Positions 8,723 through 28,288 of a stretch of 64,000 nt of DNA are shown here, piece by piece. A model generated the notes under the pieces. The model ran no database searches, had not been told where the DNA came from, and worked only from the letters and a program-made list of their open reading frames with translations. The stretch is from Myxococcaceae bacterium (GTDB lineage: Bacteria > Myxococcota > Myxococcia > Myxococcales > Myxococcaceae). The position numbers and the translations under genes were made by a program. Within the stretch, counting starts at the first letter, position 1. Every line of letters begins with the position of its first letter. The stretch is taken from positions 1 to 64,000 of the forward strand of contig JAEUJQ010000076.1 of the NCBI GenBank assembly GCA_016793095.1. Reading direction: 5' to 3'.

Positions 8723-8855
8723 GGAGGTGTGAAGGCCAGCAAGCGATACGCCACTCCACCGGCGAACAGCGCGTCGGTTCGCCGTTCCTGGCGAAGGTGA
8801 ACTCCCTGGAATCGCAGGCCTGTCGACGAAATGCGGAGGCGGCCTGGGGTGCGGT

Positions 8856-8876
8856 GCCTCGCATTCGCTGCGAGGC
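8856..8876 (-). terminator. Hairpin downstream of the RNA ligase gene
   Basis: GCCTCGCA and TGCGAGGC form a perfect 8-bp stem around the loop TTCGC. It lies about 95 bp past the RNA ligase stop on the minus strand. There is no T-tract, so it may stabilise RNA ends or need a factor. Confidence 0.5.
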
Positions 8877-8896
8877 TCGCACTGATTACAGGCGAG

Positions 8897-8916
8897 GTGG
8901 GGACTCTGCTCCCCAC
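8897..8916 (-). terminator. Second hairpin downstream of the RNA ligase gene
   Basis: GTGGGGA and TCCCCAC form a perfect 7-bp stem with the loop CTCTGC, about 55 bp past the RNA ligase stop. Together with the hairpin at 8856 it gives a tandem transcript-end structure before the metalloprotease gene. No T-tract is seen. Confidence 0.5.
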
Positions 8917-8970
8917 TCGGCGGAGCCTGCACGCGCGCGGCGACTCCTGCCGGACTCCAGCTCGTGACGG

Positions 8971-10002
8971 TCAGTCCCGCTCGTCGAGCAGGTACTGGTT
9001 GGAGATGGCCTTGAACGAGAGCCGACCACCGAGCACGTCAGAGCGTGCCTCGGCCTGTGGCCGGACGACGATGCCTTCGCGCTGGTTGGCGGTATTCGGG
9101 TACACCCCTTCCGCGCGCAGGAGCAGGGAGTCCACCGTCTCGTCGAACGCGTCACCCTCGAATGCGAGCGGCACCGGCTGAAGCGCGTGACGCGCACACA
9201 GGGCCCTGAGTTCGGCGTCGGAGAGGTGCCGGCCCGCCTGCCAGTCCCAGGCGCTGAAGAGGAAGAGCTCCTTGTCCTTCAGGCTGGCCGGGTTCTTCTG
9301 AATGCCGGGGCCAACCACTTCGCCCTGCAAGGCGAGCGTCGGGTGTGCGTCGAGCACATCGGCGAGGCGGTACTTCTTCGCGACGTACCAGTAGAGGTTC
9401 TCTCCCTCGGCGATGGAGTGGTTGCGGCCGCAGACGTGCAACGCGCCATCGACCTTCACGAAGGTGGCGCTCGTGCCGTCCATCTTCACCGTGGCGACGA
9501 AGGGCCTGCCACGCAGCTCGTCGAGCACCGCCGGGAAGGACTGCACGCGCAGCTCGTCGGTCTTCGGCACGATGCCCGGAAAAGGCGCGCGGTAGTCGCC
9601 CATGCCCGCCGGTGCCGGCGGCTCGTACTTGCTGATGCCCAGGCGCTCTGTGAGGTCGTCGCCAGCCTTCACGTCGCGGAGGCCGAGCTGCCCAAGCGGC
9701 AGCAGCAGGCCCTGAGAGAGCGTGCCGCGCAGCCGCAGGGTGCGAATGCGGAACCAGTCGGGCCGAGGCGTCCGGGTGGTGGCGGTCTTCGCCTGCCAGA
9801 GCCACGCGAAGGTGTCGGTGTCGGGAGGGACGGAGTCGATCTCCAGGTACACCGCCAGCTCGCCCGCGGAGACTTCGCCCTTCTTCACCACACACTGCCA
9901 GCCAGCGACGCGGGCGACCTCGATGCGGTCGGCGCCCGCGATGGGGTTGACGGCGCCAACTGTCACGACGGACGCGAGCTTGCGCTTCATGGTGGGGGGC
10001 AT
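8971..10002 (-). CDS. ATP-dependent RNA ligase, DraRnl (TIGR02306/Rnl5) family
   Basis: This 343-residue protein matches the Deinococcus-type RNA ligase family, which joins RNA ends and favours RNA-templated nicks. The N-terminal 130 residues carry the family OB-fold-like part, with KLASVVTVGAVNPIAGADRI. The nucleotidyltransferase domain has motif I, KMDGT, with the adenylated Lys at about residue 173. EGIVVRP (motif IV) and LSFKAISNQYLL (motif V) follow near the C-terminus. The length equals the family norm. The start is the ATG at 10002; an ATG four codons later (9990) is equally possible and neither has a clear ribosome site. It lies 44 bp after the hydrolase gene in the same direction, so the two are probably cotranscribed. 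The role is probably RNA repair. Confidence 0.87.
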   Translation of the reverse strand: MPPTMKRKLASVVTVGAVNPIAGADRIEVARVAGWQCVVKKGEVSAGELAVYLEIDSVPPDTDTFAWLWQAKTATTRTPRPDWFRIRTLRLRGTLSQGLLLPLGQLGLRDVKAGDDLTERLGISKYEPPAPAGMGDYRAPFPGIVPKTDELRVQSFPAVLDELRGRPFVATVKMDGTSATFVKVDGALHVCGRNHSIAEGENLYWYVAKKYRLADVLDAHPTLALQGEVVGPGIQKNPASLKDKELFLFSAWDWQAGRHLSDAELRALCARHALQPVPLAFEGDAFDETVDSLLLRAEGVYPNTANQREGIVVRPQAEARSDVLGGRLSFKAISNQYLLDERD

Positions 10003-10046
10003 GATCGCGTCGACGGAGCGCTCAGGCGAGCCTGACACGGGGCCGA

Positions 10047-10874
10047 TCACGCCGTCAGCGTCGTCAGCACCGCGCGCCTCAGCGCCCGTCCGTGAAATGC
10101 CCAGGCCCCGAGGTGCCCCGAGTCGACCCACGTCGGAGTCACGCCCCAGTGGCGGGCAAGGCGCTCCATGGCCGCCGGCGCGACGACGCCGTCCCTCCGC
10201 ATGGCGACGACGACACGTTGCCTCGAGCGCGGCACCGGCTGATGCAACACGGAGAGCTGCCGCAGCACCGCGCGGAGTCGCTCCATGCCCTCATCCCCGA
10301 GGGCGGCGCGGTCGACGCTGGCCGCCAACGGCCCGTCGCAGAACACCACGCTCGCGTCGTCGGGCGGTGCCATCACCGTCACCGGCACCTCGACGTCGAG
10401 GGACGCCGCTGCGTGCGCCGACATCTGGCCCGCCATCGAGTAGCCGGCGAGCGCGACGGGCAGCGACGGCTTCGCCTCGAGCGCGGTGGCGACGAGCGCG
10501 CGCACCTCCACCACGTTCGCGAGGCCCATGCGCAGGAAGTCGCCCACCGTGGGCAGGTTCATGCCCTGCTGAGCCGCCGCCCGCCGCGAGCCGAAGTACG
10601 CGCCCTCGAGGAGCCACAGCTCGACGCCCTGGTAGCGGAGCGCGTCGAAGAGGTGCGTGCGTCGTCCGAAGCCCTCATCACCCCATGACGGCGGCACGAG
10701 GACGCGCGCGCGGGTGGGACCCTTCGCGCGCATGCGCATCACGTGCAATCGACCGGTGTGCGCGTCGAGCAGCGGCGCCGGAGACGGGGCGAACGCCTCT
10801 TCGGTGCGCGCGGACGTGGGGAAGAACTCGAGCGCGAGCGGCGTCGCCGAGCTGCGGGTCAACAACGGCGGCAC
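10047..10874 (-). CDS. Alpha/beta hydrolase, ABHD18/DUF2048-like
   Basis: This is a 275-residue alpha/beta hydrolase. The nucleophile elbow is GYSMAG and the segment EGAYFGSRRAAAQQG precedes it. The order EGAYFG, Gln-Gly, MGLANVVEVRAL, GYSMAG and a late His in DSGHLGAWAF fits the ABHD18 (DUF2048) family, whose animal member acts on lipids. No signal peptide is seen, so it is probably cytoplasmic. It is upstream of the RNA ligase gene in one probable operon. The substrate is unknown, and the family call rests on motifs alone. Confidence 0.75.
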   Translation of the reverse strand: MPPLLTRSSATPLALEFFPTSARTEEAFAPSPAPLLDAHTGRLHVMRMRAKGPTRARVLVPPSWGDEGFGRRTHLFDALRYQGVELWLLEGAYFGSRRAAAQQGMNLPTVGDFLRMGLANVVEVRALVATALEAKPSLPVALAGYSMAGQMSAHAAASLDVEVPVTVMAPPDDASVVFCDGPLAASVDRAALGDEGMERLRAVLRQLSVLHQPVPRSRQRVVVAMRRDGVVAPAAMERLARHWGVTPTWVDSGHLGAWAFHGRALRRAVLTTLTA

Positions 10875-11122: not shown

Positions 11123-13207
11123 ATGCACCGCGTCCTCGTCTGCTGCCTCGGCCTCGCCCTCGTGGGGTGCGAAGGGGCCATCGTGCCCGGTGGAGTCCTG
11201 CTCCCCGGTGAGCCGGTTGGAGGTTCGGGAACCGGTGCGGGCGGAGCAGGGCAGGGCGGCGGGGGCAGCGAGGTGATGACGTGCGCGCCCGTCGAGTCGC
11301 TGGACCCGGGACGCGTCACCATGCGTCGGCTCAACCGCGTCGAGTACAACAACACGGTGCGCGATCTGCTCGACGACGCGACCGCGCCGGCCACCGACTT
11401 CCCCGCCGACGACTTCGGGCACGGGTTCAACAACATCGCCGACGTGCTCTCGACGGCGCCGGTGCTGGTGGAGAAGTACGACCTCGCTGCGAAGGCGCTG
11501 GCCGAGGCCGTCATCGCGAAGGAGTCCTCCCCCGGCCAGACGACGCGGGTGCAGGCGGAGGACGGCGCGAAGTCCACCGGCGGGGCCGACGGCGAGTTCT
11601 GGAACCTCTGGTCGAACGGCACCATCTCGACGCAGGTCACCTTCGTCACCACCGGCCGCTACACCTTCCGCGTTCGCGCCGCGCAGACGGCGGCGGGCAG
11701 CGAGGCCGCGAACATGGTGCTGAGCCTCGATGGGCGGCAGCTGGGCGCCTTCCCCGTCACCGCGACGCGCGCGACGCCGGGCGTCTACACCGCCGAGGCC
11801 GACGTCACGCAGGGCAGCCACCGCGTCGAGGTGGAGTTCACCAACGACTTCTACATGCCTCCGGCCGACCGCAACCTGCTGGTGGACTGGCTCGAGGTGC
11901 AGCGCCCCGGCACCGTCGTCGACCCGTCGATGGCGAAGGTGATGGTGTGCGACCCGGCGACGGCGGGCTGTGCGCGCACCATCCTCACGCGCTTCGGCCG
12001 CAAGGCCTGGCGGCGGCCCCTGACGACGGTCGAGGTGGACCGCTACGAGCGCGTCGTCACCCTCGCGCAGATGGAGGGCGAGACGCCCAAGGCCGGCCTG
12101 GCGCTGGCGCTCGAGGCGATGCTGTTGTCGCCGCACTTCCTCTACCGCGTCGAGCTCGACGCCGAGCCGACGTCGTTGGCGGCGCACCCGCTCACGGCCC
12201 ACGAGCTGGCCGCGCGGCTGTCGTACTTCCTCTGGGCCAGCACCCCCGACGAGGCGCTGGCCCGGGTGGCCGACGACGGCAGCCTCCTTCAGCCCGCCGC
12301 GCTCGAGGCGCAGGTGACGCGCATGCTCGCCGACCCGAAGGCGAAGACGCTCACCACGCAGTTCGCGGGCCAGTGGCTGTGGTCGAACCAGGTGGAAGAC
12401 GCGGCGCCCTCGGCGAGCGTGTACGCGAACGTCACCGCCGCGACGAAGGCCGCCATGAAGGGCGAGACCGAGGCCTTCTTCGAGCACTTCCTCAAGCAGG
12501 ACGTGAGCGTGCTGGGCCTCCTCGGCTCCGACTTCACCTTCCTGAACGACGTGCTCGCCGATCACTACGGCCTGCCCCGGCCGAACTCGGCGACGCTGCA
12601 GCGGGTGACGCTCGTCTCGAGGCCCGAGCGGGGCACGGTGCTCGGTCAGGCCGGCGTGCTGACGGTGACCTCGTTCCCGACCCGCACCTCACCGGTGAAG
12701 CGCGGCGCGTGGGTGATGGCGAACCTGCTCTGCCAGGAGCCGCCCGCCCCTCCACCCGGCGTCGAGGCGCTGCCGGTGCCCGAGGTGCCCAACGCGACGC
12801 TGCGGCAGCGCATGGAGCAGCACCGGTCGAACCCCACCTGCGCCGGCTGCCACTCCTTGATGGACCCCATCGGCTTCGGCATGGAGCCCTTCGACGGCGT
12901 TGGCCGCTCGCGCACGATGGACACCGGCGGCTTCGCCATCGACGCGTCAGGCACGCTGCCCGACGGGCGGTCGTTCAGCGGCCCCGGCGAGCTGTCGCGG
13001 CTGCTGCGCGACGACCCGCGCTTCCCGCACTGCCTCGCCGAGAAGCTGTTCACGTACGGGCTTGGCCGCGCGCCGCGTCGCGACGAGACATGCCAGGTCG
13101 AGGCCATCTCGAAGGACTTCGAGCACCGCGGGCATCGGCTCTCGGGGCTGGTGAAGTCCATCACGCTGAGCCGTTCGTTCACGCACCGCCGCGGAGAGAC
13201 GCCATGA
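11123..13207 (+). CDS. Exported lipoprotein of the DUF1587/DUF1595/DUF1592/DUF1588/DUF1585 family with inserted carbohydrate-binding-like domain
   Basis: This is a 694-residue lipoprotein (lipobox LVGC; ATG at 11123, although the frame is open from 10961). Domains in order are DUF1587 (RLNRVEYNNTVRDLLD), a beta-sandwich insert of about 130 residues resembling a carbohydrate-binding module (TRVQAEDGAKSTGG onward), DUF1595 (RFGRKAWRRPLT), DUF1592 (LLSPHFLYRVE, LSYFLWASTPDEAL), DUF1588 with CAGCH at 573-577, and DUF1585 (LAEKLFTYGLGR). These families occur together in Planctomycetes and myxobacteria. CAGCH fits covalent haem c attachment. The stop overlaps the next gene as ATGA, so the pair is translationally coupled. 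The substrate is unknown. Confidence 0.9.
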   Translation: MHRVLVCCLGLALVGCEGAIVPGGVLLPGEPVGGSGTGAGGAGQGGGGSEVMTCAPVESLDPGRVTMRRLNRVEYNNTVRDLLDDATAPATDFPADDFGHGFNNIADVLSTAPVLVEKYDLAAKALAEAVIAKESSPGQTTRVQAEDGAKSTGGADGEFWNLWSNGTISTQVTFVTTGRYTFRVRAAQTAAGSEAANMVLSLDGRQLGAFPVTATRATPGVYTAEADVTQGSHRVEVEFTNDFYMPPADRNLLVDWLEVQRPGTVVDPSMAKVMVCDPATAGCARTILTRFGRKAWRRPLTTVEVDRYERVVTLAQMEGETPKAGLALALEAMLLSPHFLYRVELDAEPTSLAAHPLTAHELAARLSYFLWASTPDEALARVADDGSLLQPAALEAQVTRMLADPKAKTLTTQFAGQWLWSNQVEDAAPSASVYANVTAATKAAMKGETEAFFEHFLKQDVSVLGLLGSDFTFLNDVLADHYGLPRPNSATLQRVTLVSRPERGTVLGQAGVLTVTSFPTRTSPVKRGAWVMANLLCQEPPAPPPGVEALPVPEVPNATLRQRMEQHRSNPTCAGCHSLMDPIGFGMEPFDGVGRSRTMDTGGFAIDASGTLPDGRSFSGPGELSRLLRDDPRFPHCLAEKLFTYGLGRAPRRDETCQVEAISKDFEHRGHRLSGLVKSITLSRSFTHRRGETP

Positions 13208-14544
13208 AGTTCACCCTGTCGCGACGAACGCTGCTCCGTGGCGCCGGTGCCTCACTGGCGCTGCCGTGGCTCGAGGCGATGCTGCCGAAGGGAGCGCTCG
13301 CGCAGGCCATGGCGCCGAAGCGGTTCCTTGCGTTCTACGTGCCGTGCGGCATCCGCATGAACCGGTGGACGCCGGCAGCCACCGGCGCGACCTGGGCGCT
13401 GACGCCGATCCTCGCGCCGCTCGGTCAGCGCGGGCAGGACCCCTCGATCCAGGGGGACGTCAACGTCATCAGCGGCCTGTCGAACCGCCCCGCGCGCCCT
13501 GATGGGCCGGGCGATCATGCGTCGGGCACCGGCGCGTTCATCACCGCGCGTCACCCGTTCAAGACGGAGTCCACCAACATCCGCAACGGCATCTCGCTCG
13601 ACCAGGTGTTCGCGAACGCCTGGCGGTCGCAGACGCGCTTCGCCTCGCTCGAGACGGGCACCGACGGCGGGGGCTCGTCGGGGAACTGTGACTCCGGGTA
13701 CTCGTGCGCCTACGCGCGGAACATCTCCTGGGCGTCGGAGACCCAGCCGCTCGCGAAGGAGACGAACCCGCAGGTGCTGTTCGACCGGCTCTTCGGTGGG
13801 CTCGACCCGAACCAGAGCCAGCAGATGGTGGAGAAGCGCAAGCGCCTCAAGCAGTCGGTGCTCGACGCGGTGAAGGCCGACGCCGACGCGCTCAAGCCGA
13901 AGCTGGGGAAGACCGACCAGCGCAAGCTGGACGAGTACCAGACGGGCGTGCGCGAGCTCGAGCGGCGCGTGCAGGCCGAGCAGCCGATGACGGTGTGCAC
14001 GCCCGGCGGCCGGCCGGCGACGGTGGGCGACCTGCGCGACCGAACGCGCGTGATGCTGGACCTGCTCGTGTGGGCGTTCCGCTGCGATCTGACGCGCGCG
14101 GCGACGTTCATGCTGCAGAACGCGGGCAGCGGGTACGTCTTCAACTTCCTCGGGCTGTCCGACGGGCACCACTCGTACTCGCACCACGGCGGCTCGGCGA
14201 CCAACCTCGACGCCATCGAGCGCATCAACACGTGGGAGCTCGAGCAGTTCGCCTACCTGGTGCGCGCGCTGAAGGCCGCGCCAGAGGGCAGCGGCTCGGT
14301 GCTCGACAACTCGCTGGTGTTCTTCTCGAGCGAGATTGAAGACGGCGACTCGCACAGCCACGACAACATGCCGATCCTCGTGGCGGGGCGTGCGGGCGGG
14401 CGCGTGCAGACGGGGCGGCACCTGCGCTTCACCGGCGCCCCGTCGGTGGCGAACCTGTTCCTCTCGATGACCGACGCTTTGGGTGCGCCGCAGACGTCGT
14501 TCGGAGACTCGACCGGCCTGCTCCCCGGCTTCATCACGGCCTGA
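13204..14544 (+). CDS. Tat-exported DUF1552 protein
   Basis: This 446-residue protein begins MKFTLSRRTLLRGAGASLA, a twin-arginine signal. The body matches DUF1552, including FLAFYVPCGIRMNRW, DGPGDHASGTGAF, and late DGHHSYSHH and SHSHDNMPIL. The family is related to alkaline phosphatase/sulfatase-like folds such as DUF1501. Tat export suggests a folded, cofactor-bearing protein in the periplasm. It starts inside the stop of the DUF1592-type gene, the usual genomic partner. The enzymatic reaction is not known. It ends just before a hairpin repeat array. Confidence 0.9.
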   Translation: MKFTLSRRTLLRGAGASLALPWLEAMLPKGALAQAMAPKRFLAFYVPCGIRMNRWTPAATGATWALTPILAPLGQRGQDPSIQGDVNVISGLSNRPARPDGPGDHASGTGAFITARHPFKTESTNIRNGISLDQVFANAWRSQTRFASLETGTDGGGSSGNCDSGYSCAYARNISWASETQPLAKETNPQVLFDRLFGGLDPNQSQQMVEKRKRLKQSVLDAVKADADALKPKLGKTDQRKLDEYQTGVRELERRVQAEQPMTVCTPGGRPATVGDLRDRTRVMLDLLVWAFRCDLTRAATFMLQNAGSGYVFNFLGLSDGHHSYSHHGGSATNLDAIERINTWELEQFAYLVRALKAAPEGSGSVLDNSLVFFSSEIEDGDSHSHDNMPILVAGRAGGRVQTGRHLRFTGAPSVANLFLSMTDALGAPQTSFGDSTGLLPGFITA

Positions 14545-14850
14545 GCCACGTCGGCGTGCCGCACCGCGAGAACAAGCGGAGCCACGTGAGCGGTGGTCGA
14601 AGGTGTGCTCGCGGCGTGAGCTGAGCGGTGTGCTGGTTCGAGGCGTGCCGCACCACGCGAGAACCAGCGGAGCCACGTCAGCGGTGGTCGGAGGTGTGCC
14701 CGCGGCGTGAGGTCGCGCGCGCGCACCGCGAGAACAAGCGGAGCCACCTCAGCGGTGGTCGGAGGTGTGCTCGCGGCGTGAGGTCGCGCGCGCGCACCGC
14801 GAGAACAAGCGGAGCCACCTCAGCGGTGGTCGAAGGTGTGCTCGCGGCGT
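14541..14850. repeat. Four-copy hairpin repeat array between convergent genes
   Basis: Units of about 51 bp sit at 14564-14614, 14653-14705, 14726-14776 and 14797-14847. Each can fold: CCGCGAG pairs with CTCGCGG at the ends, then ACA with TGT, and CCACC with GGTGG around a 5-nt tip. Unit spacing is about 71 bp for copies 3-4 and 90 bp for copies 1-2, which hold an extra gtgctggttcg segment. Copy 2 has drifted at its outer arms. The array fills nearly all of the 318 bp between the DUF1552 gene and the FG-GAP gene, so it may end transcripts from both sides. No gene is seen in it. Confidence 0.85.
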
Positions 14851-14862
14851 TGATGGCTGCGC

Positions 14863-17800
14863 TCAGAAGTCGAGCGGCAAGATGAACGCCGTGCCGTTCG
14901 CCGTGCCAGAGCGGTACGACAAGGGCGCGCCGATGACGAGCGCTGCCGGCGTACTCGCCGTCGTCGAGGCCGGCGTCGCCGCGAGGTCCTGGCCGAACGC
15001 CGCCCGCTCGCGCTGGTCCGGGAACGCGGTGAAGTGCGACTCGTTCCTCCCCGGCACCGTCAGCCCTGCCGCGAAGCCGAAGACCGCTCCCGTGCCGTCG
15101 CCGTTCGCGTTCGCCGTCGGCGCTCCGACGAGCAGATCCGGCCGCGCGTCGCCCGCCACGTTCACGCCGCCCCAGAGCTGCCGCCCGAAGCCCGGTGCGC
15201 GGTCCAGGTACACCAGCGGCACCGGGTCGAGGCCGTCGCCCAGGGCGCCCACCAGGACGCCTCCTGACATCGGCCGCCGCGCGTTCAGCTGCGCCACGTC
15301 GAACAGCAGCACCGTCGGCTGAGCCACGCCCTCGAACGAGTACAGGTCGGCCGTCACCGCCACGAAGTCGCGCGTGTCGTTCGCGAGCAGCTGGCCCGCG
15401 CGGGCCATCGCCACGCCGAGCCGGAGCGTCGGCAGGCCCGCCTCGACGTCACCAGACACCCGCACCCACGAGCCCTCGGTGCGCCCGCCACAGCGCGTGC
15501 CGCCAGGGTCGAAGCCGTACGCCACGATGAAGCCGAGCCGGTCGCCGTAGCGCAGGCCCAGCTCGTGACAGCCGTCGCCGTTCAGGTCGCCGAGCGCCGC
15601 CAGCAGCGTGGTGCCCTGCGGCACGTTCGGCAGGGTGAAGCCCATGTCGCACGCGATGGACGGCCTGGCGAGGGTGGCATCGTCAGGCGCGCGGCCGAAC
15701 ACCACCTCGAGGCCGTTCGTTCGCGAGAGCGCGAGATCCTGGGTGCCGTCGCCGTTGAAGTCGAAGCCTCCGACGAGGCCGTTGCGCGAGAGCGCTGCGC
15801 GTTGACACACCGCCGCCGCGCCGCCGTCGGGCACCGTGCAGTTCGGGATCTGCACCGGCGCCCACACCCGGAAGCCCTCGGCGAACGTGCCGTCAGCCCG
15901 CTGCAGCCACACGAGCGCGCCACCTGGAGTCTGCGCAGCGCCCGGGAAGCACTGCGGCCGATTCCCGGCGTACTCGGCGTTCGGTACGCCGCCGTCGGCC
16001 AGCCGCGCGGGCACGCTCCAGTTGGGGGCGGCGAACACCGCGTCCTGCCTGCCGTCACCGTCGAAGTCCGTCATGGCCACGTCCACCGCGAGCGCGCGCC
16101 CGCCGAAGGCCGGCACGCCCGCGTCCGTCACGTACCTCGTCGTCGCGCCCTCCTGCAGGACCCTCGGCGCGTCGGGAGCGGCCGACGAGAAGAGGTGCGC
16201 CTGGCCCGCCCCCAGCTCGTTGCCCGAGGAGTCAGCGCCGGCGCCGTGCACGTTCGGAGCGCCGATGAGCGCGCGCAGCCCGCCGACGCCCGGCGCGACG
16301 TCGACCGCCTGCCCGAAGCCCTGCGACGCGGCCCTGTTCGGAATGGCCGCCGCGCTCGCCGTCCACGTCGACAGGTCCGCGCCCGAGCCCGAGAAGACGT
16401 CGAGCCGACCGGTGAAGAGCCCCTCGGTGGTGCTGGCGCGGCCCGCATACCCGAGCAGCAACGTCGTCCCGCCGTTGGCCCAACCTCCAGTCGCGATGCC
16501 GAGCGTGTCGGTGCGGTTGGCGCCCGCGCGCACCATCGTCGTCTTGTTGAGCAGCGCTCCGCGCGAGAGGCCACCGAGCGGGTAGACGAGCAGCCGGCCC
16601 GCGTTCGGCGACGACACCATCATGCCGCCCACCATCGCCGTCGTCGTCGCGTAGGGCGCCCCCAACACGAGCTCGGGCTTCATGTCGGCGTCGAGGTCGA
16701 CGACGGCGAAGCTGCGGCCCGCCTGGATGTTGGCCTGGTCTCCATAGAGCTGCGCGAAGGCGTCGGCCCGGCCGACCTGCGTCGGGCGGTCGGTCGCCGC
16801 CCCGCTCGCCATCAACGGGCGCAGGTCGAACAGCACCGCGCCGCCCGCGTTGGAGCCCGCCGGGTTTCCGCCCATCGCCATCAGGTTCGGAGAGTCCGTC
16901 TGGTCCGCCGCGGCGATGAGGTAGGGGCCCACGCCGCCCGACGCGGGGACGACGCCCAGCCGCCACGTCCCCTCGCCCGAGTCCATCGGGTTGATGGGCA
17001 GCACGAAGGCGTCGGGCCTGGCCTCGAAGCGCGGCGTGCCCTCGCGGCCGAGGTGCACCTGAATGGCGTTCTGGTTGCGCGCGAGCGCCGTGCCACCGAG
17101 CAGCGAGTTGTTCACCGAGGTGAGGAAGGCGAGATCGACGCGGCCGTCACCGTTGAGGTCGTGCGCGACGAGGAAGCGCCCGGCGCGGAGCTGTGTGAAG
17201 GGGCGCAGCGTGCCGTCGGCCGCGAGGTCCTGCCCGCCGAGGCGAATGGAGCCGAGGTCGGGCACGGGCTGGTTGCGCGTCAGCAGGAAGATGTCCACCA
17301 CGCCGCGCGAGTTGATGGCGCCCGTCGGCGCGAGGTCGGCGCCGGGCGAGCCGACGACGAGGTCCTGGTCGCCGTCCCCATCCACGTCGGCGATGGCCAG
17401 CGAGGCGCCGAAGTTCCCGCGCCCCAGGCCCGTGAGCGGCGGTCGCATCAGCTCGGGGCCGTCGTCGGTGATGCGGTAGAGCACGACCGCGCCGGAGTCG
17501 GCGATGGTGATGTCGGCGCCCGGCTCCGAGATGGCGAGGTCATCTCTGCCGTCGCCGTCGAGGTCGCCCACCGCGAGCACCGCCCCGAGCTGGGCCGTGT
17601 CGGAGTCGCCGAGGATCTGCCAGGTGTGCCGCGCCGGCAGGCCGGTCGGCGTGCCCTTGTAGATGAAGACGGCGCCTCCCTGCGGCCTGCCGAGGTCGCT
17701 CTCGGGGACGCCGAGCGCGACGTCCTTCACCCCGTCACCGTCGAAGTCACCCACGGCCATCGTGGCCACGTCGCTCCGCCGCCCCTGCGGCACGGTCGGG

Positions 17801-18639
17801 CGCGTCAGCTCGGTGAGGATGCGGATGGAGGCGCTGGCCGTCTCACCGGTGAACTCGTCGCGCACCGTGAAGGTGGCGGTGCCGCCTCCCGAGGCAGGCG
17901 CGGTGAAACGACCCCCCACCAGCGCGCCTGGGCCGCCGGTCTGCTGCCAGGTGACGACGCCCGACCCCTCCGCAGTCTCGAGCGGCACGACACCACCGGT
18001 AGGCACCGCCATCTTCGATGGCCGCGCGCGGAACCGGGCCGTGGGCGTGACGCGGTACTGCAGCAGCACCTGGTCTCCCGAGACGCGGTCGCGCGCGACG
18101 ATGAGGTCGAGCCCGGGCGTCATGCCTGCCGTGTACACGCCCGCGGCGGTGATGGTGCCGCCCGAGGCGAGCCGGCTGGCCGAGGGCGCGAACTCGACGG
18201 TGCCGGAGTTGCCGACGACCGAGATGGTGAAGGTCGTGCCTGGGCGGATGGTGGCGCGCAGCGGCTGCACGTCGAAGAGCGGCTGCACGCGAATGTCGAG
18301 CTCGGCCGAGCGCCCGCAGTCGTCGGTGGCGCGCACGCGGTCGGTCCCGGCGGCGGGCCCGGCGATGTAGCGGCTGCCCGAGATGCTGCCGCCCGACACG
18401 TTCGTCACCACGCTGTAGCTGTACCGGCCAGAGCCGCCGCTGCCCTCGAGGCTCGCCGCGCCTTCCGTGCGCACCGTGGCCGGGGCCGCCGTCAGCGCCA
18501 CTGGCGTCAGCGACGGGTCCTCACAGCGATCGACCGGCGGCGGCAGCTCGGGTGGCGCGGGCGTCGGGGGCTCGCACGCGGTGAGCGCGAGGACGGCGAG
18601 GGTGAGCGACGCGAGAAGCAGGCGGCGGCACGTCGTCAT
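14863..18639 (-). CDS. Large FG-GAP repeat lipoprotein
   Basis: This is a 1258-residue lipoprotein. From the ATG at 18639 the lipobox is LTAC; the frame is open to 18816 but those codons overlap the upstream gene. About 250 N-terminal residues look like two or three Ig-like (Big) modules. The rest is a string of FG-GAP/integrin-type propeller blades with calcium-binding cores: DGDGVKDVALG, DGDGRDDLAIS, DGDGDQDLVVG, NGDGRVDLAFL, DGDGRQDAVFA, NGDGTQDLALS and others. It is probably a surface adhesion or scaffold protein. Its start overlaps the stop of the upstream CxxCH gene as ATGA, so the two are coupled. The ligand is unknown. Confidence 0.87.
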   Translation of the reverse strand: MTTCRRLLLASLTLAVLALTACEPPTPAPPELPPPVDRCEDPSLTPVALTAAPATVRTEGAASLEGSGGSGRYSYSVVTNVSGGSISGSRYIAGPAAGTDRVRATDDCGRSAELDIRVQPLFDVQPLRATIRPGTTFTISVVGNSGTVEFAPSASRLASGGTITAAGVYTAGMTPGLDLIVARDRVSGDQVLLQYRVTPTARFRARPSKMAVPTGGVVPLETAEGSGVVTWQQTGGPGALVGGRFTAPASGGGTATFTVRDEFTGETASASIRILTELTRPTVPQGRRSDVATMAVGDFDGDGVKDVALGVPESDLGRPQGGAVFIYKGTPTGLPARHTWQILGDSDTAQLGAVLAVGDLDGDGRDDLAISEPGADITIADSGAVVLYRITDDGPELMRPPLTGLGRGNFGASLAIADVDGDGDQDLVVGSPGADLAPTGAINSRGVVDIFLLTRNQPVPDLGSIRLGGQDLAADGTLRPFTQLRAGRFLVAHDLNGDGRVDLAFLTSVNNSLLGGTALARNQNAIQVHLGREGTPRFEARPDAFVLPINPMDSGEGTWRLGVVPASGGVGPYLIAAADQTDSPNLMAMGGNPAGSNAGGAVLFDLRPLMASGAATDRPTQVGRADAFAQLYGDQANIQAGRSFAVVDLDADMKPELVLGAPYATTTAMVGGMMVSSPNAGRLLVYPLGGLSRGALLNKTTMVRAGANRTDTLGIATGGWANGGTTLLLGYAGRASTTEGLFTGRLDVFSGSGADLSTWTASAAAIPNRAASQGFGQAVDVAPGVGGLRALIGAPNVHGAGADSSGNELGAGQAHLFSSAAPDAPRVLQEGATTRYVTDAGVPAFGGRALAVDVAMTDFDGDGRQDAVFAAPNWSVPARLADGGVPNAEYAGNRPQCFPGAAQTPGGALVWLQRADGTFAEGFRVWAPVQIPNCTVPDGGAAAVCQRAALSRNGLVGGFDFNGDGTQDLALSRTNGLEVVFGRAPDDATLARPSIACDMGFTLPNVPQGTTLLAALGDLNGDGCHELGLRYGDRLGFIVAYGFDPGGTRCGGRTEGSWVRVSGDVEAGLPTLRLGVAMARAGQLLANDTRDFVAVTADLYSFEGVAQPTVLLFDVAQLNARRPMSGGVLVGALGDGLDPVPLVYLDRAPGFGRQLWGGVNVAGDARPDLLVGAPTANANGDGTGAVFGFAAGLTVPGRNESHFTAFPDQRERAAFGQDLAATPASTTASTPAALVIGAPLSYRSGTANGTAFILPLDF

Positions 18640-20186
18640 GGCAGGCTCCCTCCCGTCACCCACCGCTGGACGAGCTGGATTCCGGCGGCGTCGAGCGGTC
18701 CGTCGGCGGGCATGCGGCGGTCGCGAACCGCGTTGGCGCAGGCAGCGGCGAACGTCTTCCACTGCTCGTAGCTCGAGAGGTCGGGCTGGGTGCCGGTGGA
18801 GTGGCACTTGTCGCACCGCGCCTGCGACAGCGGTCGGATGTCGCGCTGCCAGGACACCTGCACCACCGCTGACGCCTCGAGGTCGAAGTGCACCAGGCGC
18901 TTCGAGTCCACCCCGTCAGCGGTGCGCGCCGACACCTCGAGCGTGTGCAGCCCGTCCGTCAGCACCCCGAAGGAGATGAACTTCGGCCGACCAGAGGGCT
19001 CGAGCCCGCCGAGCGTGTGGAAGGTGAGCGCCTGTTGGGGAGGCGCCCCCGCCCGGCCCTTCGTCACGTCCACGGTGCGGGGCTCGCCGTCGTCGAAGCG
19101 CCAGCTGAGGCTCTCGAGCATGAGGCGCTGCGGCACCACCAGCTCGACGACCGCCTCGGGCTCGTGAATGACCTGGTTCTGGTAGACGCCCGTGAGGCGC
19201 AGCGCGGGCGTCGGCGCGATGGAGAGGGTGCTGCCCCCGACGCGCACCCAGGCGCTGCCCGCCGCGTCCACCGCGAGGAGCCGCGGCACCGCCTCGAGCC
19301 CCTTCGCGTTCGTCCACATGCGCGCGTCAGCGTCGTAGCGGTACAGCCCATCGCCCGACTGCAGCCAGAGGAAGCGCCCGTTCGACATCACCTGCTTCGG
19401 CGTGCGGCCCAGCTCGTAGCGCCGCCAGCTCACCAGCGTGCGCTGGTACAGCACCTTCGGCGTGATGACCCACACCTCGCCCGACGAGGTGCGCGAGGCG
19501 GTGATGCCGGCGATGCCTCGCACGCCGCCTGCGAGCTCCTCGGCGGTCAGCCCGCTGTCACGAATCGAGTAGGTGTTCGCCGCGGTCTGCGCGGCCACCG
19601 ACACGGTGTCGCCCTGGGCGAACCACACGCCGGGCCGCAGGTCGGTCGCCGGCGCGATGGCGAGCGAGGTGATGCCGGTGATGGCGTTGCCGTTGGCCTT
19701 GAGCTCCTTGAGCTCGCCGCCCTCGATGCGGAACAGCCCGTCGTCGTGCGCAATCCACGCGACGCCGTCGGGCGCGATGGCGCTCGAGCGAAAGCCGCTC
19801 GCCGACAACCTCGTCTGCCAGGGCGGCGCGATGAGCCACCCCGCATCGGCGACGTAGAGGCCGCGGTCCGTGACGACGAGGGCCGAGTAGGGGCCCAGCG
19901 GCCAGAGGCTGGTGGCCGGGCCTGGCGGCACGGCGTTCTGAGGGTGGGACTCGAGGGCAGCGCGGGTGCCGTCGGAGCGGAGGCGCACCACGCGCCCGGC
20001 GAGGTCGATGAAGAGCCCACCGCCCCGCTCGTCCGCGAAGGACGGCGCCGCGGAGAGGTCCACCATCGCGGCGAGCGTCGTCACGTCCACCGGCGCGGCG
20101 GTCAGCGTCTCGGTGATGACGCCTCCACAGCCACTGCCACCGATTGTCAGCACGAGCGTCGTCGTCAGTCCCAGGCGACCCAGCAT
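18636..20186 (-). CDS. Propeller-type lipoprotein with C-terminal CxxCH motif
   Basis: This is a 516-residue exported protein with a lipoprotein-like signal ending GGSGC. The ATG at 20186 is preferred; the frame is open to 20255. Residues 40-330 show two-component-sensor-like propeller repeats (DGVAWIAHDDGLFRIEGG, GRFLWLQSGDGLYRYD). An Ig-like region follows. The last 80 residues read as a cytochrome-c-type end, QRDIRPLSQARCDKCH, with CDKCH at 458-462, then DRRMPADGPLDAAG. This resembles planctomycete-type cytochrome c segments. Met in RRMPADG is a candidate axial ligand. It is coupled to the FG-GAP gene and separated from the DUF1501 operon by a terminator. Confidence 0.8.
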   Translation of the reverse strand: MLGRLGLTTTLVLTIGGSGCGGVITETLTAAPVDVTTLAAMVDLSAAPSFADERGGGLFIDLAGRVVRLRSDGTRAALESHPQNAVPPGPATSLWPLGPYSALVVTDRGLYVADAGWLIAPPWQTRLSASGFRSSAIAPDGVAWIAHDDGLFRIEGGELKELKANGNAITGITSLAIAPATDLRPGVWFAQGDTVSVAAQTAANTYSIRDSGLTAEELAGGVRGIAGITASRTSSGEVWVITPKVLYQRTLVSWRRYELGRTPKQVMSNGRFLWLQSGDGLYRYDADARMWTNAKGLEAVPRLLAVDAAGSAWVRVGGSTLSIAPTPALRLTGVYQNQVIHEPEAVVELVVPQRLMLESLSWRFDDGEPRTVDVTKGRAGAPPQQALTFHTLGGLEPSGRPKFISFGVLTDGLHTLEVSARTADGVDSKRLVHFDLEASAVVQVSWQRDIRPLSQARCDKCHSTGTQPDLSSYEQWKTFAAACANAVRDRRMPADGPLDAAGIQLVQRWVTGGSLP

Positions 20187-20266
20187 CACGTCTTCCCTTC
20201 CTTGCGCGCGGCCCTGCGCTGCGGTGGCCTTCGACCCACGCTGGCGCGACCGCATGGTACCCCAAT

Positions 20267-20299
20267 GAAAAGGGGCTCCGGAGAATCTCCGAAGCCCCT
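20267..20299 (-). terminator. Strong intrinsic terminator after the DUF1501 operon
   Basis: On the minus strand AGGGGCT pairs with AGCCCCT and an inner CGGAGA pairs with TCTCCG, with one mismatch between the stems. A TTTT run follows the stem. It lies about 55 bp past the DUF1501 stop and before the gene starting at 20186, so it separates two minus-strand units. Confidence 0.85.
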
Positions 20300-20352
20300 C
20301 GTCTTCGCTCCCTCACCCGTCGCGAGGGCGGGCAGACGGGCCCGGGGTCGGC

Positions 20353-21795
20353 TCAGGTCGCCATCAGGCCCTTGAGCGGCTCGACGCGCATGATGCTGTA
20401 GTCGAGGCCCGCCGAGGCCATGATGGTCGCCACCACGTGGTCGGGCAGGTACTGGAAGCCCTTCCGGTCCGGCCGACCGGTGTCGTAGTTCACCACGCCC
20501 GCCGACATGCCGACGTTGCCAGACGCGCCGAAGACGAAGTTGTGCTTCACGCCCCGGCCCACGATGGCGCAGCAGTTGGTGATGTGGTGGTCGCGGCCGC
20601 CCGAGGCGTTGATGAGCGGCGTGCGGCTGAACTCCGAGAACACGAGGATGGTGACGTGCTTGATCCACTTGTCACCAGCGGGGTGGTCGGACTCCTTGAA
20701 GTCGGCGATGAGATCGGCCAGCGCGTTCCAGCCGGCGCGCTGGTTGTTCGCCTGGGTGAGCTGCGTGCCGAAGTGGGTGTCGAGCCCGCCAGCGATGTTC
20801 ATGCTGACGCACTGGCTGACGCCCTTCTTGAGCGCGGTAGCGACGAGCGCCGCCCGGGCCGCCGACGAGTTGCGGGGGTCGTTGGTGAACCCGTTGTTCC
20901 CCACCCGCAGCTGGTAGCGCGCCACCGTCGCCGCCTTCTCCATCGCCACCGCCGGTGGGTCGCCGGTCGTCTGGTCGAAGCGGAAGTAGCGGTCGAGCGA
21001 GGCGTCGAGCACCGTGCGCACCTGCTTGCGCGCGTCGTTGTACTGGGTGACGAGGCCACGCGAGTCGTAGAGCTGCGACTCGCACGTCACCGGCTGCCCG
21101 CGCATGTCGATGAGCTGCTTCTCGATCTCGCTGTCGATGGCGGTGGGGCTCGGCGCGAGGGTGAGGAGCAGGTCGTTCGCCGACGACACCCGCAGCGCGT
21201 TGGCGTAGCCACCGTAGCGGTCGTTGTACGACTCGATGTTGAAGGCGAGGTTCGGCACCGGCGGGCGCTGGTTCGCTGCCATCTTCGGGTAGAGCTGGCC
21301 GACGACCTCGGTCGCGGTGGACGAGTTGCGGGCCGCCGAGCCGTTTGGCTCCTTGCCGGTGAGGAAGTACCGGAAGCCCACCTCGTGGGCGACGGTGTTC
21401 ATGTTGATGCCGCGCACCACCGACATCACGTCGAAGTGGTCGGCGAAGCGCCCCACCGCCGGCCCGAAGGCGATGTTCGACCCCTGCCGCTGGATGGGCA
21501 TCGTCGGGTAGGTGGGGTCGTTCGCGAGCAGCGAGTACCCGGGGAGAATGCGGGTCTCGCTGATGCGCTCCGGGGTGAACTCGTTCGGGTCGCGCGGGTC
21601 GAGGTTCAGCAGGGCGTCCCAGCCCCCGCCGAAGTACGCGAAGACGAAGCAGTGGTCGGCCGGTGCGAGGGCCTGCGCCTGCTGCGCGAAGGCCTTGAAC
21701 GACAGGCCGCCGAACAGGCTGGTGCCGGCGAAGGCCGAGGCGGCCTTGAGGAAGGTGCGGCGCTGGAGGGTGTTCTTCACGGAGTTTCTGGACAT
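20353..21795 (-). CDS. Tat-exported DUF1501 protein
   Basis: This 480-residue protein begins at the ATG at 21795, with GGAGAG upstream as ribosome site. Its signal contains QRRTFLKAASAFAG, a twin-arginine motif. The body fits DUF1501: CFVFAYFGGGWDALLN, GGLDTHFGTQLTQ, SEFSRTPLINASGGRDHH and GRPDRKGFQYLPD. The family is sulfatase/phosphatase-like in fold, usually paired with exported planctomycete-type cytochromes. Here it is the last gene of an operon with a CxxCH protein and a small lipoprotein; the gap upstream is 17 bp. It probably forms a periplasmic complex with them. The reaction is not established. Confidence 0.9.
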   Translation of the reverse strand: MSRNSVKNTLQRRTFLKAASAFAGTSLFGGLSFKAFAQQAQALAPADHCFVFAYFGGGWDALLNLDPRDPNEFTPERISETRILPGYSLLANDPTYPTMPIQRQGSNIAFGPAVGRFADHFDVMSVVRGINMNTVAHEVGFRYFLTGKEPNGSAARNSSTATEVVGQLYPKMAANQRPPVPNLAFNIESYNDRYGGYANALRVSSANDLLLTLAPSPTAIDSEIEKQLIDMRGQPVTCESQLYDSRGLVTQYNDARKQVRTVLDASLDRYFRFDQTTGDPPAVAMEKAATVARYQLRVGNNGFTNDPRNSSAARAALVATALKKGVSQCVSMNIAGGLDTHFGTQLTQANNQRAGWNALADLIADFKESDHPAGDKWIKHVTILVFSEFSRTPLINASGGRDHHITNCCAIVGRGVKHNFVFGASGNVGMSAGVVNYDTGRPDRKGFQYLPDHVVATIMASAGLDYSIMRVEPLKGLMAT

Positions 21796-21812
21796 GGTGG
21801 TTCGCTCTCCGT

Positions 21813-22475
21813 TCAGTAGGTGATGAAGCGCGAGTCGGTCATGAAGGCGACGCACATCGCGCCCCACGCCTGCTCTGGCCGGTTGATGGTCTTCGCTCGC
21901 GCTGCGACGGTCTTGAAGGTGCCCGCCCACGCGTCGCGCTCGGCGGCCGAGAACGGCTGGCCCCAGAAGCGCACCGCAAGGTACGAGAGGTTCGCCTTGA
22001 TGGCGTCGTCGCTCATGGTGGTGAAGTCACGGTTCATCACCGTCACGTCGGGCCACAGCACGCGGTCTGCCGGCGCGCGGTTGAAGTCGGCGTTGGCGGT
22101 CGCCAGGCAGACCTCCCGAGCGCCGTCCTCGACGAACTTCGCGAAGACCAGGTTCGCCTCGGTGGACTCGCTGACGGTGAGCGCGAAGTCAGCCTGGCCG
22201 AGCGAGGCGGCGAGGTTGTTGATCTGCGACCACTGCCGGCCGGTCGTGGTGAGGATCGACTCGCGGAGCTGAGCCACCGTGAGGCGGCGCGGCTTCCGGC
22301 CGACGTGGCCCTCGTTGTGCTCAGGGTCGGCGAGCTTCACCATCGGCGGGTGGTTGCCCATGTCGACGGTCTCGAGGGTGCCGGCCTGCTCGGGCTTCTC
22401 CACCGGCTTCGAGGTGCAGCCGACCAGCGCGAGCCCGGCAAGCAACGCGGCGAACCGCAGGGTGAGGGTCTTCAT
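21813..22475 (-). CDS. Small lipoprotein of the DUF1501 operon
   Basis: This 220-residue lipoprotein begins MKTLTLRFAALLAGLALVGC. The start at 22475 shares one base with the stop of the gene upstream, so it is translationally coupled. RRLTVAQLRESILTTTG resembles the DUF1587 opening segment, and the end EQAWGAMCVAFMTDSRFITY resembles the DUF1592 phrase around LLSPHFLYR. It may therefore be a reduced relative that completes a split DUF1592-like unit together with the 662-residue protein before it. There is no CxxCH of its own. The family assignment is an inference from these short matches. Confidence 0.7.
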   Translation of the reverse strand: MKTLTLRFAALLAGLALVGCTSKPVEKPEQAGTLETVDMGNHPPMVKLADPEHNEGHVGRKPRRLTVAQLRESILTTTGRQWSQINNLAASLGQADFALTVSESTEANLVFAKFVEDGAREVCLATANADFNRAPADRVLWPDVTVMNRDFTTMSDDAIKANLSYLAVRFWGQPFSAAERDAWAGTFKTVAARAKTINRPEQAWGAMCVAFMTDSRFITY

Positions 22476-24463
22476 CAGTCGATCCTCCGGTAGGCCTCGG
22501 TGGCCATGATGCTCTGCATGAGCGCCTTGAGGTTGTGGCCTTCGGCAGAGAAGCCCTGCGCGAGGCCGTGCAGGTAGAGGGACTCTTCCTGCGTGCTCAT
22601 GCCGCGGCCGAGCAGGTGGCTCCACATGTTCCGCACCGCGCACCGCTCGAGCTCTCCGGTCTGCATGAAGCGCTGCACCATCAGGCGCGGCCCGCCCACG
22701 ATGTTCGACTCCTCGTCCGAGGTCCGGTACAGGTAGGTGCGCAGCAGGCCCAGGGAGTTGGCGCCGTCGCCGTCGAACGCCTGCATGACGTAGTTGCCGC
22801 ACTCGTTGTTGCAGGTGGTGTCGCCGGCGAGCGCGCAGTCGCGGCACCGGGCGTCGAGGCGGGGGAACTTCTCGGGGTCCAGCCAGGTGGCGTTGCGCTC
22901 GCCGAAGCGACCCCAGTGCGCGCCCATCGGCTCGACCGTCGCGTGGCAGTACGAGCAGCCGCAGCGCTTGGCGAGGTTGTTCTCGCGGTTGCAGCTGTCT
23001 TCGGGGGCCGGGGCGATCGCGCCCGGCTCAGGCGCGAAGTGCTTGCAGAGGAACGCCTCGTAGAACTGGTTCACGCGCGCGCGGTGCGTGGGGAAGCGAT
23101 AGAGCCACGACGGGGTGGTCAGCACGCCCGAGGCCTGGTCGTCGCGCGTGTACTCGGCCCAGGTGGTGGTGTCGGCCAGCGGCACGTCGGGAATGGCATC
23201 GCGCGCGGTCGGAGGCGTCACCAGCCACGTCTGCGGCGATTGGTTCTGACGGAACATCTGCGAGAGGGTGCCGTTCACGAAGCTGCGACGCGTGGTGAGG
23301 ATGTTGAAGTAGTCCTCGTTGCGGCGGATGACCGAGTCGGTGATGAGCACGGGCTCGTCGTTGAAGGCGCTGATGCGCGCGTTGTGGAGCGCGGTGTTCG
23401 CCGACTCGCAGCGGTTCGAGCGCGGCCCACAGCCACAGGAGCGGTCGCCGGTGAACCGGCCGGTGTTGCACGACTCCATCGTCCACGGGTTGGTGTCGCG
23501 CGCCTGGGCCTCGATGGCGCACATTGGCACCTGCGTGGCGCCACTGGCGTCCCAGTACGGAGCCTGGGTCATCACCACGCCCTCGCGCTGCACACAGCCC
23601 GCCGGCACGCGGTAGCGCCCGCGGATGCCGCCGTTGAGCTCGAGGTCGAGGCCGCAGCGGTTGAGTCGGGTGGTCTGACCGGTCGCCGCCAGCATCGAGA
23701 AGGCGATCACGTTCTGGTTCGCGCCGTCGAAGAGCTCGGTGGTGGTGGTGCCGGCGACCGTCATCGCCTGCGGGAGGCAGTAGTGGGGGACGAGCGCCGT
23801 GCCCACGCGGCGCATGTCGCAGAAGAGCAGGTGCTTCGCGGGGAGCATGCGCCCGGCCGCGTCCATCTGGCCGACGGCGCTGTTGCAGTCGGTCGCCGTG
23901 GAGATGGCCTCGCACCGGTAGATGTCGGTGCTGTAGTCGACCGTCACGGGCAGCGGGACGTTGAAGTTGTCGTAGCAGCGCTTGGTGGTGGGCTCGAGGT
24001 GCGGGTCCTGGCGGTTCGCGCCGTCGTTGCAGGCGTCCTGCATGACGAAGGCGTCGCAGCCCGCGCCGTTCTGTCCACGAAGGCCGGTCGACGGGTTCCC
24101 GCGGATGCCCAGGGGCCGGAAGCCCACGGGCACGTCCGCGAGCCGCATGTCGCCGTTCACGAAGATGCTCTGGCTGATGTTCGAGCGGAGCAGCGCGCGG
24201 TGGTAGCCCCGCATGCGCCCGTAGAACTCCTCCTTCTCCATCAGGCTCGCGACGTCCTCGGGGAGGACGGCGCCCTTGGCCTGGTAGAACCGGTACTCGG
24301 CCATCGTCGGCGGCCGGCCGACCATGTCGAGGTAGACCTGCCGAACGTGTCTCTCGAGCGGCACGTTCGAGGCCGAAGCCTCACAGACGGGACCGTCGGC
24401 TGCGAGCGACGGGACAGCGAGCAGCGCAAGACAGCTGCTCACGACTCGGGTCATCAGACGCAT
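22475..24463 (-). CDS. Exported 662-residue CxxCH protein, DUF1592/DUF1585-like ends
   Basis: A Sec signal (SCLALLAVPSLAADG) leads a Cys-rich protein of 662 residues. RHVRQVYLDMVGRPPT near residue 40 resembles DUF1549-type openings. CSYCH lies at 503-507 in a context like DUF1588 (CHATVEPMGAHWGRFGE). The C-terminus, MWSHLLGRGMSTQEES onward, resembles DUF1585. Many additional Cys, including CGCGPRSNRC, suggest disulfides. It opens an operon with the small lipoprotein and DUF1501. ATGs at 24463 and 24454 are both possible. I regard it as a divergent planctomycete-type cytochrome partner of DUF1501. The substrate is unknown. Confidence 0.75.
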   Translation of the reverse strand: MRLMTRVVSSCLALLAVPSLAADGPVCEASASNVPLERHVRQVYLDMVGRPPTMAEYRFYQAKGAVLPEDVASLMEKEEFYGRMRGYHRALLRSNISQSIFVNGDMRLADVPVGFRPLGIRGNPSTGLRGQNGAGCDAFVMQDACNDGANRQDPHLEPTTKRCYDNFNVPLPVTVDYSTDIYRCEAISTATDCNSAVGQMDAAGRMLPAKHLLFCDMRRVGTALVPHYCLPQAMTVAGTTTTELFDGANQNVIAFSMLAATGQTTRLNRCGLDLELNGGIRGRYRVPAGCVQREGVVMTQAPYWDASGATQVPMCAIEAQARDTNPWTMESCNTGRFTGDRSCGCGPRSNRCESANTALHNARISAFNDEPVLITDSVIRRNEDYFNILTTRRSFVNGTLSQMFRQNQSPQTWLVTPPTARDAIPDVPLADTTTWAEYTRDDQASGVLTTPSWLYRFPTHRARVNQFYEAFLCKHFAPEPGAIAPAPEDSCNRENNLAKRCGCSYCHATVEPMGAHWGRFGERNATWLDPEKFPRLDARCRDCALAGDTTCNNECGNYVMQAFDGDGANSLGLLRTYLYRTSDEESNIVGGPRLMVQRFMQTGELERCAVRNMWSHLLGRGMSTQEESLYLHGLAQGFSAEGHNLKALMQSIMATEAYRRID

Positions 24464-24644
24464 CAGGCACCTCGCGGACGAGAGGCAACGGCAATGGGGA
24501 GGGTGAGGATCACGATTGTGCGTTGATCGTCGTCAATCGGCAATGTGCGAGTGTGCAGACGATGTAGGGGCATGAGCGCGCAGCCTTCAGGGCCACTTGA
24601 GCGCGAAGGTGGCGAGGACGGGCCCGTTGAGGCATGGGAGCCCC

Positions 24645-25190
24645 ATGCAGCGCGCTGAAGTGAGTCACAAGCCCTTCTTCGTCTTCAACGCAGCGGTCTC
24701 GGTGCTGGCGTTGAGCCTGCTCGCGTGGCTGTTGCTGGTGCACGGAGGCCTGCAGAGCCCGACGGTGAACCTGCGCTTCATGCCGGCGGTGAACGCGGGC
24801 CTCAACGCGTTGGCGGCGACGTTGTTGGTGGCCGGGCGGGTGGCGATCGCGAAGCAGCGGCAGGGCCTGCACCGCGCGCTGATGGTGTCGGCGTTCGCGA
24901 CGTCGGCGGTGTTCCTCGTCGGCTACCTCGCGTACCACGCAGTGCACGGCGACACGAAGTTCGGGGGCGAAGGCGCCGTGAAGGTCGTCTACCTCGTCGT
25001 GCTCGCGAGCCACGTGCTCTTGTCGATGGGCATCGTGCCGATGGCGCTCGCGGCGTTCTACTTCGCGTGGCGGCAGGACTTCGCGAAGCACAAGAAGGTC
25101 GCCCGCGTCCTCCACCCGGTGTGGCTCTACGTCTCGGTGACGGGCGTGGTCGTCTTCTTCATGCTGCGCCCGTACTACCCTGCGGGGTGA
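24645..25190 (+). CDS. DUF420 integral membrane protein (YozB/CtaM-like)
   Basis: This is a 181-residue protein with five predicted membrane helices. Conserved DUF420 features include KPFFVFNAAVS at the N-terminus, HRALMVSAFATSAVFLVGY, HVLLSMGIVPMALAAFYFA and a final helix ending in FFMLRPYYP. Family members such as CtaM help assembly of haem-copper oxidases. The start is the ATG at 24645 with GGGAG seven bases upstream; an in-frame TTG at 24597 is less likely. It stands alone, divergent from the DUF1501 operon and convergent with the next gene. No oxidase genes are near, so the link to respiration is from family knowledge only. Confidence 0.85.
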   Translation: MQRAEVSHKPFFVFNAAVSVLALSLLAWLLLVHGGLQSPTVNLRFMPAVNAGLNALAATLLVAGRVAIAKQRQGLHRALMVSAFATSAVFLVGYLAYHAVHGDTKFGGEGAVKVVYLVVLASHVLLSMGIVPMALAAFYFAWRQDFAKHKKVARVLHPVWLYVSVTGVVVFFMLRPYYPAG

Positions 25191-28218: not shown

Positions 28219-28288
28219 GCAGACCGCGGGAACATGTCATGCACGTCGCGGCCGCTGATCGCCCTCTTACCGCGCGGGAGTGGACACC

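Follow-up and report, generated by a model that had tools for sequence, protein, structure and literature searches.

This locus raises the question of whether seven neighboring genes for exported proteins belong together and, if so, what their products may do in the cell envelope. The genes, here called g1 to g7, lie at positions 11123 to 24463 of the window, by which we mean the whole stretch of 64,000 nucleotides that was analyzed (positions 1 to 64,000 of contig JAEUJQ010000076.1, assembly GCA_016793095.1), from a member of the Myxococcaceae with a genome of 8.8 Mb (our G000, the stretch lying on contig C66). A sequence-only reading had taken them as a single block that could be one extracellular oxidative machine acting on a polymer. 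All seven open reading frames are present where they had been placed, with their starts refined, but the boundary of the block was wrong: the conserved unit is the operon g7-g6-g5-g4-g3, and g1-g2 form a separate, convergent pair. For the operon, the explanation that we prefer is an envelope complex of a metallohydrolase and a short haem chain, to which we give about an even chance of being right.

All five operon genes are on the reverse strand. Gene g7 (22475-24463) encodes a 662-amino-acid CxxCH protein with a Sec-type signal, and g6 (21813-22475) encodes a lipoprotein of 220 amino acids whose C-terminal half resembles DUF1595 (PSD5). Next come g5 (20353-21795), encoding a DUF1501 protein exported by the twin-arginine translocation (Tat) pathway, and g4 (18636-20186), encoding a lipoprotein with a predicted beta-propeller and a C-terminal cytochrome c domain. 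The last gene, g3 (14863-18639), specifies a 1258-amino-acid lipoprotein with FG-GAP (integrin-type) propeller repeats (Pfam FG-GAP, E value 2.9e-40). The stop codon of g7 and the start codon of g6 overlap in the sequence TGATG, g6 and g5 are 17 bp apart, and g4 and g3 overlap by 4 bases; as the genes overlap or sit this close, the arrangement is that of an operon. NCBIfam holds no name for any of these genes. That the proteins are exported was read correctly, as were the three CxxCH proteins (g1, g4, and g7) and the two twin-arginine signals (g2 and g5), and the conservation of these motifs exceeds chance. The lipobox cysteines of g6 (C20), g4, and g3 are invariant in all orthologues, the twin arginine of g5 is kept in 20/20, and the CxxCH motifs of g4 and g7 are invariant among orthologues as well.

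We compared the gene order at 43 named Myxococcaceae loci. The five genes are collinear in 32 of them, and 10 of the remaining 11 stop at a contig edge. At all 43 loci, g5 adjoins g6/g7 unless the contig ends first, and g3 is the final operon gene in all informative orthologous loci except one. The operon is carried by Myxococcus xanthus, Corallococcus, Archangium, Pyxidicoccus, Hyalangium, and Citreicoccus, and its gene order stays constant as protein identities drop to 37 to 60%. Among 60 genomes of relatives searched, 28 contained g7, and an alignment search gave matches in 101 of 195 genomes across the phylum, a count that takes in distant relatives. At other loci and in other families of the Myxococcota there is a wider module with the order g4-g7-g6-g5 (L079-L081, L084-L086, and L134-L136; partial copies in L082 and L083), accompanied in L133 and L136 by a divergent g3-like gene. 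Its g7 relatives share about 30% identity and do not have the Cys-rich insert described below. Since the two arrangements share members in two different orders, we argue that the proteins work together. We have high confidence in these statements on the composition and evolution of g3 to g7, from the operon layout and its conservation to the homologies, the fold class, and the motifs. A full Myxococcaceae operon in the usual order, together with its DUF420 neighbor (see below), was also observed in BNCN01000002.1 (L123), which is titled Comamonas sp. KCTC 72670 and is probably a mislabelled genome.

The pair at the other end of the block is on the forward strand. Gene g1 (11123-13207) encodes a lipoprotein with CxxCH at residues 573-577, in which DUF1587, DUF1595, DUF1592, DUF1588, and DUF1585 all score above the Pfam gathering cut-offs; a CBM60 xylan-binding module at residues 181-268, between DUF1587 and DUF1595, is the sole carbohydrate-binding module (CBM) recognized among g1 to g7. 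Its partner g2 (13204-14544) encodes a Tat-exported DUF1552 protein (Pfam E value 1.5e-91). Because g2 and g3 converge, g1-g2 is a separate unit. A simple scan showed no terminator between g2 and g3. The proposal that all seven genes form one extracellular oxidative machine draws on the adjacency of g1-g2 and the operon in the window and at the related loci L091, L093, and L094, on the homology of g1-g2 with g5, g6, and g7, and on the presence of CBM60. However, g1-g2 lies beside the operon at just these three of 29 informative loci, all in the genus of the window. The nearest relatives of g1 in other genera (52 to 55% identity) are on other contigs than the operon, and the host genome carries about nine DUF1592-DUF1552 pairs at scattered sites (eight PSD2 loci and nine DUF1552 loci). 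The expected co-occurrence in other genomes was thus found for g3 to g7 but not for g1-g2, and we consider a seven-gene machine quite improbable. The g1-g2 pair appears to be another, independent copy of this type of pair, which in this genus lies next door by chance.

The likeness between the two pairs, which had been noticed earlier as parallel arrangements, is backed by homology. Residues 361-660 of g7 align with the DUF1592C-DUF1588-DUF1585 part of DUF1592 proteins (hhalign probability 97.4%, E value 1e-11), CxxCH falling on CxxCH; g6 aligns with the DUF1595 region (85%, E value 6e-6), and DUF1501 aligns with DUF1552 over 77 columns (94%, E value 1e-7). As g7 matches DUF1592/1588/1585 and g6 matches DUF1595, the second pair can be seen as a split version of the first. 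The layout of g7 would be a PSCyt2-like N terminus (residues 36-93), a Cys-rich insert (about 136-352), and then the DUF1592C-DUF1588-DUF1585-like C terminus with CxxCH at 503-507. Together, g6 and g7 look like a split DUF1592-type protein with a PSCyt2-like start. The g7 protein of the window, searched as a single sequence, stays below the Pfam gathering cut-offs (PSD1, 18.6 bits versus 28.5; PSD2, 16.3 versus 25.8; PSCyt2 and PSCyt3 are also subthreshold). When its orthologues were searched singly, PSD2 was found in 21/21, PSCyt2 in 18/21, PSD4 in 14/21, and PSCyt3 in 11/21. PSD5 was found by Pfam in 9 of 20 g6 orthologues (best E value, 4e-4) and gave no match in the g6 of the window itself. 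The g7 CxxCH is invariant in 21/21 orthologues and 13/13 wider relatives, and the motif is likewise invariant in 10/10 DUF1592 proteins. A fold search with the predicted g7 model gave nothing below an E value of 0.001 (best Z score 4.8, to a phycobilisome linker chain), which says little because the model is weak.

The g5 protein matches PF07394 (DUF1501) with 62.6 bits against a cut-off of 27 (E value 4.8e-17), and its AlphaFold2 model (predicted local distance difference test [pLDDT] 62, predicted template modeling score 0.71) retrieves alkaline phosphatases as the top matches in Foldseek (E value 2.5e-4, probability 0.98). With VIA-align, PafA and nucleotide pyrophosphatase/phosphodiesterase (NPP) enzymes reach Z scores of 14 to 15 (PafA, Z 15.4, root-mean-square deviation 4.5 over 265 residues). 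In the predicted structure, the core fold of g5 is that of the alkaline phosphatase superfamily, i.e., a hydrolase type and not an oxidase. Across 18 diverse DUF1501 proteins, with identities as low as 29%, six residues do not vary: D60, T134, D339, H341, D402, and H403. They are candidate metal ligands and nucleophile, assigned from the superfamily pattern rather than by superposition on a known active site. As in PafA, NPP/autotaxin, sulfatases, and iPGM, the fold goes together with a D..T..D-x-H..D-H pattern, here invariant. In contrast to those enzymes, g5 is genetically paired with haem proteins and shares only about 11% identity with them, the assignment being made from model and sequence.

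In g4, C458, C461, H462, and M492 are invariant in 18/18 orthologues, as is the Met-Pro pair, so that the methionine is a candidate distal ligand; CxxCH and Met are also retained in the wider g4-g7-g6-g5 module. Cytochrome_CBB3 is below the Pfam cut-off in the protein of the window (15.7 bits versus 27) and matches weakly in 17/18 orthologues. The N-terminal part is propeller-like, as suggested by a weak match to 3v9f, a propeller-bearing sensor (E value 3e-5); otherwise the g4 profile gave only a weak match to the cytochrome 4rlr, and no family relative was found among solved structures for the profiles of g5, g7, and g4 or for the g1 sequence. It is very probable that both g4 and g7 bind haem, and the host genome encodes cytochrome c assembly proteins. 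FG-GAP propellers, as in g3, are often binding modules. It could be argued from this, from the two large propeller lipoproteins, from the Cys-rich insert in g7, and from the lack of a known substrate that g5 and its partners are not catalytic but make up a surface adhesin or a structural assembly, with the phosphatase-like fold and the c-haem domains there for binding or stability. The invariance of the six g5 residues and of CxxCH and Met in g4 would be difficult to account for if no metal or haem chemistry took place, and this disfavors the non-catalytic explanation, which we regard as rather unlikely.

Under the explanation that we prefer, the five genes would encode one cell-envelope complex. 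The g5 protein would be a metal-dependent enzyme of the alkaline phosphatase superfamily, exported folded via Tat and carrying out ester chemistry, and its substrate may be an ester of the phosphate or sulfate type in a polymer of the envelope or of prey. The g7 and g6 proteins would hold g5 and replace the single-chain DUF1592/PSCyt protein that is the usual partner of DUF1501/DUF1552. One c-type haem would be carried by g7 and a second, His/Met haem by g4, and the two may donate electrons to a bound partner or accept them from it; g3 is probably a scaffold or ligand-binding part. We infer this mechanism in all its steps, i.e., complex formation, haem loading, catalysis, electron transfer, and substrate, and put it forward tentatively. 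Still more speculative is a family-wide envelope redox-hydrolase complex, not described before, whose Tat-exported enzyme with the phosphatase fold would be coupled to a two-haem relay (the split PSCyt protein and the propeller-cytochrome lipoprotein), so that ester chemistry on a polymer would be tied to electron transfer; we consider this unlikely.

Several observations weigh against this explanation. At L101/L058 (G008:C6), the sole clear exception in gene order, neither g4 nor g3 is present in the 2.5 kb that follow g7-g6-g5. The confidence of the g5 model is middling, with several putative active-site loops at a pLDDT of <50, and the g7 model is poor around CxxCH. We no longer consider H516 as the distal haem ligand of g7, since this residue is not conserved across the wider family. 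Sequence-profile searches of solved structures gave no match for g5 or g7, Pfam recognized no CBM in g3 to g7, and we found no literature biochemistry on any operon member.

How does the operon compare with known systems? In the Planctomycetes-Verrucomicrobia-Chlamydiae (PVC) group, PSCyt proteins are paired with two partner gene families, and CBMs occur in PSCyt proteins of Verrucomicrobia (PMC5615132). A "DUF1501 module" was described by Kamneva et al. in 2012, as cited in PMC4452313 and PMC4960237; in its composition, a DUF1501 gene beside PSCyt-type genes with exported products, g5 with g6/g7 agrees with such PVC-type modules. As in the Planctomycete and Verrucomicrobia PSCyt-PSD systems, an exported CxxCH PSCyt/PSD protein stands beside a DUF1501/DUF1552 partner. 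In contrast to these, the PSCyt partner is split over g7 and g6, a PSCyt2-like start is joined to a PSCyt3/PSD2 end, a Cys-rich insert is present, and the operon adds a propeller-cytochrome lipoprotein (g4) and an FG-GAP lipoprotein (g3). DUF1800-DUF1501 pairs, which are found beside bacterial chitin synthases (PMC5122149), also combine a Tat-exported DUF1501 protein and a partner gene in one operon, but that partner is DUF1800 instead of a PSCyt protein and no cytochrome or propeller is described. The host genome has one such pair (G000:C55:158004-160612). The pairing of PSCyt with DUF1501/DUF1552 is thus already known from PVC bacteria, and the split form, the propeller-cytochrome partner, and the family-wide operon are apparently new. 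Within a partial coverage of the literature, we found no paper describing these three features, which is not proof of novelty, and none tied to the M. xanthus copy of the operon, whose locus tags were guessed from map position.

Perhaps the envelope complex acts on polysaccharide. The hints are indirect: CBM60 in g1, the CBMs of Verrucomicrobia PSCyt proteins, the location of DUF1501 genes by chitin synthases, and the cellulose phenotype of Cellvibrio japonicus, which grows more slowly on cellulose when it lacks Cbp2D and Cbp2E (PMC8981238). Cbp2D combines a DUF1587 domain with a redox-active c-haem domain and has been proposed to act with lytic polysaccharide monooxygenases (LPMOs), which this related protein is able to reduce (PMC8981238). 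By analogy, the haem chain of the operon might donate electrons to LPMOs. Cbp2D resembles the locus in being an extracellular protein that has a DUF1587 domain and c-haem domains, but it is one multidomain chain that contains CBM2, X158, and X183, and PMC8981238, as far as covered here, reports no DUF1501 or propeller partner. Moreover, LPMO_10 is matched in 24 of 59 family genomes, but not in the host genome or in several operon-bearing genomes, such as G002, G006, and G028; as operon-bearing genomes do without it, LPMO_10 cannot be the general partner, unless the role falls to another LPMO family. Donation to LPMOs was dropped as a general role, and we consider it very improbable.

Upstream of g7 and divergent from the operon lies g8 (24597-25190, forward strand), which encodes a DUF420 membrane protein (Pfam E value 1.4e-39). 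In Gram-positive bacteria, DUF420 has been associated with the maturation of cytochrome oxidase. At 38 of the 43 named loci, the divergent neighbor is a DUF420 gene, and in M. xanthus AM003 (L129:8517-9116) a haem oxygenase gene lies beside the DUF420 gene, flanking the operon. The operon might then serve respiration or haem handling together with DUF420, for example, as the electron link between a donor in the envelope and the terminal oxidase. However, DUF420 is also present in family genomes that do not have the operon (for example, G011, G013, G015, and G026), which weakens the idea that it is an obligate partner, and we hold a respiratory role to be improbable. A few kilobases from the operon, genes for the small and large subunits of a [NiFe] hydrogenase occupy positions 28280-31188 (NiFe_hyd_SSU_C/Oxidored_q6; NiFeSe_Hases, E value 2e-234). 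On the other side of the block, the window encodes a 1720-amino-acid protein (3770-8932) that has PKD, Ig, and carboxypeptidase-regulatory repeats and matches gametolysin (M11) peptidase barely above the cut-off. It also encodes a phage-type RNA ligase (8971-10131) whose OB-fold domain is of the PHA02142 type, adjoining an ABHD18-like hydrolase (10047-10874).

In Planctomycetes and Verrucomicrobia, uncharacterized exported pairs of DUF1501/DUF1552 and PSCyt proteins are common. As M. xanthus and its relatives can be grown and are genetically tractable, the operon offers a clean setting in which to learn the function of DUF1501/PSCyt pairs. The conserved gene order and the split architecture point to the proteins to co-purify, and the fold of g5 points to the activity to assay.

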